Origin: Oscillospiraceae bacterium
GTDB taxonomy: Bacteria; Bacillota; Clostridia; Oscillospirales; Acutalibacteraceae
DNA length: 64,000 nt
Reading direction: 5' to 3'
Assembly (NCBI GenBank): GCA_015066045.1
Contig: SVPD01000001.1
Span: 62,001-126,000 of the forward strand
Shown here: positions 23,947 through 58,910 of the stretch, one piece after another
Position numbering within the stretch: position 1 is the stretch's first letter
Layout: each line of letters opens with the position of its first letter
The notes under the pieces: model-generated
Database searches by the model: none
The model's input: the letters and a program-made list of their open reading frames with translations, nothing else
What the model was told of the DNA's origin: nothing
Made by a program: the position numbers and the translations under genes

Positions 23947-24126
23947 TCTGAGCCGTCAGTCTGCATATTATCAACTCAAGCTTGCTGCCCTTCGATAAAA
24001 GCGAAACCGTATCATTGCGTTTTTACGGCAGATGTGATACTATTATTCAGCATCAGTTTATATTTATAAAATATCTTTTTCCGTTTCTGTATCAAACGGT
24101 ACACTTTATCTGATTTGGAGGTACTT

Positions 24127-24482
24127 ATGAAAGGAAAAAGAGTTTTTTACAGTGAGTCAGCATATTTTATCGGAATTGCGGTTCTGGCTTTGGGAACTGC
24201 ATTTATGGAAAAAGCGAACTTTGGTATGTCTATGGTTGTGGCTCCGGTCTATCTCGTACATCTGAAAGTGTCGGAATATATGCCGTAACGGTATATGATT
24301 GCTGCAACTATGTGCTCGCCGTTGCCTTATCGCTATGCTTTTTCGGTTCTTTTGTGGGAGTGAAATGGGGTACGATTGCCTGTGCGGCTATCAATGGCCG
24401 GCTGATAGGAAAAATCTGTGATTTTTTAGAAAAGAAATTCAATTTTAAAGATGCTCTTTCTTTGAGAGAAAAAATAATGTAA
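24127..24482 (+). pseudogene. Remnant of a multi-TM membrane protein (YitT/YczE/DUF6198-like), internally deleted and frameshifted
   Basis: 5' part MKGKRVFYSESAYFIGIAVLALGTAFMEKANFGMSMVVAPVYLVHLKVSEYMP* and 3' part VLAVALSLCFFGSFVGVKWGTIACAAINGRLIGKICDFLEKKFNF lie in different frames; GGAGG RBS retained. Confidence 0.65.
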
Positions 24483-28650: not shown

Positions 28651-28899
28651 TCAGGCAGCATTGTCGGGTATTCTGCGTACGGATGCGACTCTGCTATGAG
28701 TATATGCTGCGTTTTTCTGCACGTTTTTATGTGTGCTTTTTGTGTATGATGCAGCTTTTACGCTTTTACCTGTTCTGCTTCTTTTAGCCTTAAGCTTTTC
28801 CTCGAGACGGATAAAATGCTTCTCGAAAAGTATCAGAATGAAAAGCACTGCTGCGAGTGTGAAATATACTGCTGAAAAATTACCTAATGTATTGAACAT
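28651..28899 (-). CDS. Small single-TM protein with basic cytoplasmic-type tail; candidate SOS-regulated protein
   Basis: 82 aa, TM FTLAAVLFILILF, RBS TAAGGAGGATATT, consensus promoter and LexA-like boxes upstream. Confidence 0.7.
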   Translation of the reverse strand: MFNTLGNFSAVYFTLAAVLFILILFEKHFIRLEEKLKAKRSRTGKSVKAASYTKSTHKNVQKNAAYTHSRVASVRRIPDNAA

Positions 28900-28918
28900 A
28901 ATTAATATCCTCCTTAAA

Positions 28919-28931
28919 CGAACATTCGTTC
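28919..28931 (-). promoter_or_regulatory. LexA/SOS-like box (downstream of -10)
   Basis: CGAACATTCGTTC = GAAC-N4-GTTC palindrome; reverse complement GAACGAATGTTC is 11/12 identical to the dinB box. Confidence 0.75.
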
Positions 28932-28946
28932 TTTTGTTACAAGTAA

Positions 28947-28974
28947 ATTATAGCAGATTTTATCGAAATGTCAA
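28947..28974 (-). promoter_or_regulatory. Sigma-A promoter of the small TM gene
   Basis: On minus strand TTGACA-16 nt-TATAAT. Confidence 0.8.
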
Positions 28975-28986
28975 TACAAATGTTCG
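28974..28986 (-). promoter_or_regulatory. Second, imperfect LexA-like box (upstream of -35)
   Basis: ATACAAATGTTCG: 10/12 match to GAACAAATGTTC. Confidence 0.5.
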
Positions 28987-29171
28987 ATAAATTTGTTTTT
29001 TGAGTACATATAATCGGACTTTGAACTAAAAATTTTCGGAGATTTTGCTTTTGTCAAAAAAAACTCTGTTTTTTTGTTTGTTTTGCCATCTTAAATCTTT
29101 AATAAAACAAATGAAAAATAACAAATCTTATGATATACTTAATTAAATAATATATTAACGGAGGAGATATT

Positions 29172-43805: not shown

Positions 43806-43818
43806 CGAACAAATGTTC
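43806..43818 (+). promoter_or_regulatory. LexA/SOS box of dinB
   Basis: CGAACAAATGTTC, GAAC-N4-GTTC palindrome just downstream of the -10. Confidence 0.85.
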
Positions 43819-43835
43819 TTTTGTGAGGCTTTAAA

Positions 43836-57541: not shown

Positions 57542-58910
57542 ATAAGGCTTTGAATTTTTCTTTTATTTCAGCGGCTTTTCCGCAGGACATTCTGCCCTCG
57601 GGGCAGGCGTCTGCAGCATAGCAGCTCGGTCCGTAAAAGGAGAATAAAACAGGCGAGATTTTACGGAGCTTTTTAAGAAAGTCCACTGCATATTCCTGTA
57701 TTTCCCACTGAGCTCTGGTGCAGCTTCTGAGCTTGAAAAAGAGCATCATTTCTCTGGCGTTCATTGTGGTGACGAAATCGAGGGTGTTACCGCTTAGAAC
57801 GAGGTAAACGAGCTCTGAAACGTCATAACCCTTTTCTGTGAAATCAAGATAGAGATTTTTCATTTTTTCGAAGCATTCACAGTAAATTCTCAGTGCCTCG
57901 TCGTCTCTTTTCACCGTGTCGGGAATGACATAGGAGGCTCTGTCGGCCTGAATAAGCGACGGAATGGAGATGCTCTGTATTCTGTGTCTGGCGAAATGAG
58001 TGAGACAGGCGAGAGAAACTCCGTTGAATCTGACGGTGCAGTTGAAATGCTCGAGAGCTCTCGGTCTGGATGATTTGGTCACGGCTGAGAGGATTTTCTC
58101 TACATTATCCTCGCTGCTGATAATTTTTTCTATCTGAGCGCAGGAGTAATTGTATTTTTCGATAAGAGCAGCTCTAGCGATATTCCTTTCTCCGTCAGGG
58201 GTGCAGGAAAGAATTTCGCAAAGCTCGGGATTTTCGTCTGTTTCTTTGGCTTCGGCGAAGTCAAGATTAATCTCATCCCTGTATTTTTCACCTCTTATTT
58301 CGAAGTCGGAGAAAATACCGGGAGCCTTTTCTTTGCACTGAGCGTAAAGTGAAAGGCCTAACTCGTAGATTTCCTTAATGCTTCTTCCTCTGCCGTAAAG
58401 CATGGCATTGAGCAGATTTATGAGCTCTCTGCCGCCGAGTGAACAGAGGAAATTACTGTAGAAGCAGTAGGGGAGAACGAAGCGTGCATCCTCCTTCGGT
58501 ATTTCTTTTTCGGTGAGAGCTATGTATGCGCCGAAAAGACTGTCTACAGTGTCTGTGTAAAGCTTTTTGTCTTCCTCACTTCTGAAATCGGGCATATAGT
58601 AGCCTGCCGTGCCGAAATCGACATAGCGGCGTGATTTAACCGTGAAGGAAGCGAGTCTGAATTCGATCAGAAACTGCTCCACTACGACGGAAACGTTTTC
58701 AAATGCCAGATTAAAAAATACGTGCTCTATTGTCGAGGTGTGACCTGATTTTGTAACCTTGCCGATGAGCTTTTCGTTTCGCTCCTTATCCTGAGATTTG
58801 GCGAAAATTTCCAGAGCCGTGCCTTCCTGTGTGGAAATTCGGCCTGCAGCGGCACAGACCTTTTCGTCACAGTCGGATAAACCGATCAGATAAACTCCTG
58901 ATTTTGACAT
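57540..58910 (-). CDS. FAD-dependent thymidylate synthase-like protein with tandem ThyX domains
   Basis: Domain 1 GHTSTIEHVFFNLAFENVS...FRLASFTVKSRRY; domain 2 SRPRALEHFNCTVRFNGVS...ARHRIQSISIPSL. Confidence 0.8.
   Translation of the reverse strand: MSKSGVYLIGLSDCDEKVCAAAGRISTQEGTALEIFAKSQDKERNEKLIGKVTKSGHTSTIEHVFFNLAFENVSVVVEQFLIEFRLASFTVKSRRYVDFGTAGYYMPDFRSEEDKKLYTDTVDSLFGAYIALTEKEIPKEDARFVLPYCFYSNFLCSLGGRELINLLNAMLYGRGRSIKEIYELGLSLYAQCKEKAPGIFSDFEIRGEKYRDEINLDFAEAKETDENPELCEILSCTPDGERNIARAALIEKYNYSCAQIEKIISSEDNVEKILSAVTKSSRPRALEHFNCTVRFNGVSLACLTHFARHRIQSISIPSLIQADRASYVIPDTVKRDDEALRIYCECFEKMKNLYLDFTEKGYDVSELVYLVLSGNTLDFVTTMNAREMMLFFKLRSCTRAQWEIQEYAVDFLKKLRKISPVLFSFYGPSCYAADACPEGRMSCGKAAEIKEKFKAL

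Follow-up and report, generated by a model that had tools for sequence, protein, structure and literature searches.

The window (the whole stretch of DNA that was analysed, 64 kb) contains on its minus strand an open reading frame encoding an 82-aa protein with a single transmembrane (TM) segment. It starts with ATG behind a ribosome-binding site (RBS) and is preceded by a promoter flanked by two LexA-type boxes (Table 1). The -35 and -10 hexamers are separated by 16 bp, and the match to the promoter pattern, G000:C54:90947-90985 in the assembly, corresponds to positions 28947-28985 of the window. The box of dinB serves as the reference LexA-type site of the window and agrees in 11 of 12 positions with the proximal box when the latter is read as its reverse complement. 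The preliminary description had named the ORF, the TTGACA-16-TATAAT promoter and both boxes. Its coordinates proved correct, the 11/12 identity to the dinB box was reproduced on the reverse complement, and the TM segment is supported by hydropathy and an AlphaFold2 model. Elsewhere in the window, two neighbouring short ORFs (24115-24482) resemble pieces of a single membrane protein, whose gene may have decayed or been frameshifted.

Table 1. Features of the small-protein locus and of the dinB reference site (window coordinates)
Feature	Position	Strand	Basis
82-aa single-TM protein ORF	28651..28899	-	ORF list, homologues, AlphaFold2 model
RBS AGGAGG of the 82-aa ORF	28909..28914	-	sequence; GGAGG-type site in homologues
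Proximal LexA-type box CGAACATTCGTTCT, between -10 and RBS	28919..28932		sequence; kept in homologues
-10 TATAAT, TGC upstream	28947..28952	-	sequence, homologues, pattern search
-35 TTGACA	28969..28974	-	sequence, homologues, pattern search
Distal LexA-type box CGAACATTTGTAT, half-degenerate, abuts -35	28974..28986		sequence; kept in homologues
Palindrome AGTCC-N8-GTACT (consensus AGTCC-N8-GGACT)	29003..29020		kept in promoter loci
LexA-type box CGAACAAATGTTCT of dinB, reference site	43806..43819		
dinB-type Y-family DNA polymerase, 412 aa	43836..45074	+	ORF; identified by sequence inspection

The number of boxes in the window is not above chance (14 sites with at most one mismatch, compared to 22.9 in shuffled sequences), and thus other evidence is needed to establish their significance. 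It is provided by the small number of such sites in the genome, by conservation in the genus, and by a promoter scan blind to the protein.

The assembly (2.24 Mb, 68 contigs) contains one lexA gene, at G000:C53:7516. A pattern search (not a weight matrix) for CGAACAWWYGTTYG with at most one mismatch yields seven places in the whole genome: two at lexA, and one each at recA (49 bp before the RecA match), dinB, the 82-aa ORF, a gene encoding a sigma-region-4-like and XRE protein, and an IMP dehydrogenase-like gene without an evident SOS role. The preliminary description had made its proposal depend on a GAAC-N4-GTTC motif for LexA of this genome; indeed, the sites at recA, dinB and, twice, lexA match it. 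Judged by its sequence, the operator of the 82-aa ORF is one of the few best LexA-like operators that the genome contains. The lexA promoter has the same two-box layout as the small-protein gene, with AGAACAAATGTTTG just before the -35 hexamer and CGAACATTTGTTTC after the -10 hexamer; it occupies positions 1396-1460 of locus L026. By inspection of its sequence, LexA of this organism has a VTAG cleavage site. The sigma-region-4-like gene is a second orphan SOS candidate in the genome: it is a 238-aa ORF (L004 1490-2206 on G000:C51, box at 57938-57951) combining a sigma-region-4-like stretch with an XRE-like helix-turn-helix, and it comes after TTGACA and a perfect CGAACATTTGTTCG.

A protein search identified 16 other homologues of the window protein in the same genus, the aligned ones being 19-59% identical to it. 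The distal box, the promoter and the proximal box are found upstream of all 16 with nearly fixed spacing, the boxes being degenerate in three of them (L019, L023, L024). A further weak match, L025, comes from another family and is not a homologue. The resulting alignment (A1) is too narrow for most relatives outside the genus and has no stretch conserved enough for a protein-based scan, and the DNA pattern was used instead. The query consisted of 21 fixed bases from the distal box and the promoter, GAACATTTGT-N-TTGAC-N17-TATAAT, and GTDB genomes were scanned with it without any protein input. At least 119 loci were found, with record titles such as Clostridia, Oscillospiraceae, Ruminococcaceae, 'Candidatus Fimenecus' and the like. 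Among the matches listed, 110 loci have a complete downstream ORF by a simple start/RBS rule that mis-called at least one ORF (L147), and nearly all complete loci encode the same family. Its members have 68-137 aa, with an N-terminal TM segment ending in G-h-h-x-E, followed by x-K-h-I-x-F-E and a basic tail.

In a sample of 370 genomes from the bacterial family of the window, the promoter occurs with at most one mismatch in 66 genomes, and its reversed control in none. In 61 of these 66 cases a match to the protein profile follows on the same strand at a distance of 43-111 bp. One of the promoters lacking the small-protein gene precedes a gene for a Y-family polymerase (G665, L243), a typical SOS gene. 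In another exception, L231 (G297:C1:162221-162259), a VanZ-like ORF stands behind this LexA/-35/-10 arrangement. The profile (A2, 46 rows) misses divergent members, and it matches 157 of 395 mostly metagenome-assembled genomes, representing 44 of 107 genera of the bacterial family; no match was found outside this family in order-wide and class-wide samples. The protein family is thus absent, by this profile, from many genomes of its own bacterial family and is not universal. Some genomes (G565, G640, G725) have two or three profile matches each, so the family may have paralogues. The neighbouring genes vary by clade, with an obgE-type gene in 46 loci and an alpha/beta hydrolase gene in 18, including the window, and no operon partner is conserved across the examined loci.

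Most of the best profile matches have the double-box promoter. The short forms of genus g18 (L197-L199, 54-60 aa) lack it; in its place, a single perfect CGAACAAATGTTCG or CGAACATTTGTTCG stands 27-28 bp upstream of the start codon. As the LexA logic is retained here in another promoter, these forms independently support the predicted LexA control. Taken together, the operator resembles the genome's own LexA boxes, and operator and gene are conserved together in relatives, as is expected for members of a LexA regulon. On this comparative evidence, LexA control of the small-protein gene is nearly certain.

The promoter region contains one more conserved element. Among the matches listed, the palindrome AGTCC-N8-GGACT scores at least 8 of 10 in 99 of 117 promoter loci, with a spacer of 8 in 97 of them, compared to one of 117 in the shuffle control. 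In nearly all loci it starts 33-36 bp before the distal GAAC. In the whole genome of the window only four AGTMC-N8-GKACT sites are found. Since the palindrome is retained while the neighbouring gene changes, it belongs to the small-protein gene. Its centre lies at about -72 from the expected transcription start, a position that would suit an activator. The palindrome suggests another, putative regulator besides LexA. We found no match of the pattern to regulators known at SOS promoters. In particular, the WYL regulator DriD was considered and rejected as the binder, as the half-sites of its published target, ATACGAC-N7-GTCGTAT, come in the opposite order and this target overlaps the -35 hexamer (PMC12340889).

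The window protein has its TM segment approximately at residues 8-25, followed by the conserved F25-E26-x-x-h-I-x-L-E33 and then the basic tail ending in ...RRIPDNAA. In the AlphaFold2 model (pLDDT 80, pTM 0.36) the TM helix spans residues 3-24 and a second helix residues 26-71. The amphipathicity of the post-TM helix is only weakly higher than in shuffled sequences (mean z 1.1), too little to build on. Outside the TM segment, the conserved residues are E26, I30, F/L32 and E33.

The distribution of basic residues is strongly asymmetric. Over the 110 proteins from the listed blind-scan matches, the mean number of lysines and arginines is 0.36 before the TM segment and 15.9 after it, and all 110 carry at least eight after it. 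By the positive-inside rule, this excess makes it very probable that the N-terminus is outside and the C-terminus inside the cell. The tail varies in length from 40 to 105 residues and its sequence is not conserved, except for its very end. The last residue is alanine in 100 of 110 proteins (10 lack it), compared to 35 of 500 long ORFs from the same loci, and the final two residues are VA, AA or IA in 97 of 110, compared to 6 of 500. The entropy at the final two positions is 0.5 and 1.5 bits, rising to 3.4-3.9 immediately before them. The short forms L197-L199 have no -VA/-AA end.

A conserved end on a non-conserved tail looks like a C-terminal recognition signal. With the C-terminus inside, the -VA/-AA end would face the cytosol, and a small hydrophobic residue followed by alanine at a terminus predicted to be cytosolic is what is expected of a ClpXP substrate. 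The tmRNA tag of this organism ends in ...LKAA, and the end of E. coli LexA that is exposed by cleavage is a ClpXP degron (PMC5742171). We consider it somewhat probable that the V/A/I-Ala end is a ClpXP-type degron and that ClpXP reads this tail, the -VA ends being less canonical than -LAA in this role.

Small single-TM proteins induced by the SOS response act as division inhibitors in several phyla, often via FtsW (PMC6851548, PMC13396833, PMC4211646); YneA stops division by binding TM7 of FtsW (PMC13396833). The present family resembles YneA of Bacillus subtilis and Listeria and ChiZ of Mycobacterium in encoding a small protein under LexA, a presumed SOS effector, with a single N-terminal TM segment by hydropathy and the structural model. 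In B. subtilis, yneA adjoins lexA, whereas the gene in the window does not, as the only lexA of the genome is on another contig. Moreover, none of 46 family members has a LysM domain, which rejects a YneA-like LysM protein. Both points, an orphan position and no visible LysM domain, had been made in the preliminary description, and both hold. The C-terminus predicted here is cytoplasmic, unlike those of the Gram-positive inhibitors YneA, SosA, ChiZ and DivS, which are extracellular (PMC6851548), and therefore the family is not filed with them. SosA of Staphylococcus aureus is otherwise similar, with 77 aa, one TM segment, no LysM domain, a conserved stretch right after the TM segment and a C-terminal end that is also conserved to some extent (PMC6851548). 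However, fusion assays place its tail outside the cell, and it is regulated by CtpA (PMC6851548); in the comparison with family models, none of Pfam or NCBIfam is common to the two. DivS of Corynebacterium glutamicum, likewise SOS-induced with a single TM segment and no LysM domain, belongs to another phylum and has a C-terminus predicted to be extracellular (PMC6851548). SidA and DidA of Caulobacter crescentus are small TM proteins induced by DNA damage, SidA being under LexA; they also come from another phylum, and DidA is controlled by DriD, not LexA (PMC4211646).

These observations suggest the following mechanism. In an undamaged cell, LexA dimers on both boxes, one against the -35 hexamer and the other between the -10 hexamer and the RBS, would shut a near-consensus promoter. 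Upon DNA damage, RecA-triggered cleavage of LexA would release this strong promoter, and the protein would enter the membrane, inserted by its one helix with the N-terminus out and the C-terminus in. The juxtamembrane E-x-K-h-I-x-F-E helix and the basic tail would then work from within the cytoplasm, with the divisome as the most likely target, and hold division until repair is done. Finally, the cytosolic V/A/I-Ala end would serve as a ClpXP-type C-degron, so that the block would be lifted quickly once LexA recovers. The divisome as the target is an even guess that draws an analogy to other small membrane proteins induced in the SOS response. A division checkpoint is favoured by this analogy and by the regulatory design, that is, double repression, a strong promoter and a probably destabilising tail. 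The chances of the complete proposal, an SOS-controlled checkpoint with an internal C-terminus and a degron, seem to us about balanced.

Several other explanations are less probable. One possibility, which we regard as unlikely though worth keeping in mind, is a regulator or adaptor that is anchored in the membrane and serves some other SOS task. For example, it might use the basic tail to tether the chromosome, a protease or another protein to the membrane, or modulate envelope synthesis not related to division. Nucleic acid or acidic lipids are conceivable ligands of the tail, which is predicted to be cytoplasmic, and the juxtamembrane helix of the model is conserved; however, the neighbouring genes vary by clade and offer no conserved partner for such a task. 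Slightly less likely is a membrane-active peptide that lowers the proton motive force and thus causes growth arrest or persistence rather than a specific block of division, similar to TisB or DinQ. TisB of Escherichia coli is a LexA-controlled small hydrophobic protein of 29 aa with an RNA antitoxin. LexA control, small size, one hydrophobic helix and a strongly basic tail of non-conserved sequence agree with this explanation. On the other hand, the window protein has 82 aa and its conserved part is predicted to be cytoplasmic, and for the family as a whole both the length of 68-137 aa and the conserved residues outside the TM segment point to a protein partner. It is still more doubtful that the C-terminus is outside and the -VA/-AA end is a signal for turnover by CtpA, an extracytoplasmic protease. 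Both YneA and SosA are acted on by CtpA (PMC6851548), and a small hydrophobic C-terminus could equally be recognised by a carboxy-terminal protease, but the positive-inside rule is unambiguous over the 110 proteins. Chance boxes before an unrelated or spurious ORF, with which the unremarkable box count in the window would agree, have a negligible probability and are refuted by the conservation of the ORF, the boxes and their spacing across the genus and the bacterial family.

The preliminary description had suggested an undescribed SOS effector of this lineage and had tied this to conservation of the ORF and the boxes. Both are kept across the genus and dozens of genera, and together with the LexA boxes of the genome itself they strongly support a real, previously undescribed family of LexA-controlled small membrane proteins, as predicted from sequence comparison. 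No covering family or structure was found in Pfam, NCBIfam, PHROGs or PDB, nor did these searches reveal similarity to a known family of inhibitors; DUF4636, Ctr and HemY_N were rejected as the identity of the family, as such scattered matches are weak and concern one or two members only. A literature search combining LexA, the SOS response and Oscillospiraceae found no paper, and a term search in the main texts of a study on the SOS meta-regulon of the gut (PMC3998124) and of one on LexA in C. difficile (PMC4234289) showed no matching family. As far as searched, the family, its predicted inverted topology, the conserved tail end and the putative second operator are undescribed, whereas SOS-induced small membrane proteins as a kind are already known. 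More tentatively, and with less than even confidence, the family may represent an unnamed widespread class of SOS checkpoints, with inverted topology, action on division from the cytoplasmic face, ClpXP as the off-switch, and control by LexA and a second regulator.

SOS-induced arrest of division is known in few model bacteria, and the inhibitors are so divergent that similarity searches hardly detect them; here the family is found through its promoter rather than through the protein. A candidate for the SOS effector that had been missing is thus available in dozens of genera of gut Clostridia, together with a fixed residue motif, a putative degron that can be put to the test and a putative second operator. 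If the predicted topology is true, it would show that a DNA-damage checkpoint of Firmicutes can work on the membrane from the cytoplasm, unlike YneA and SosA.
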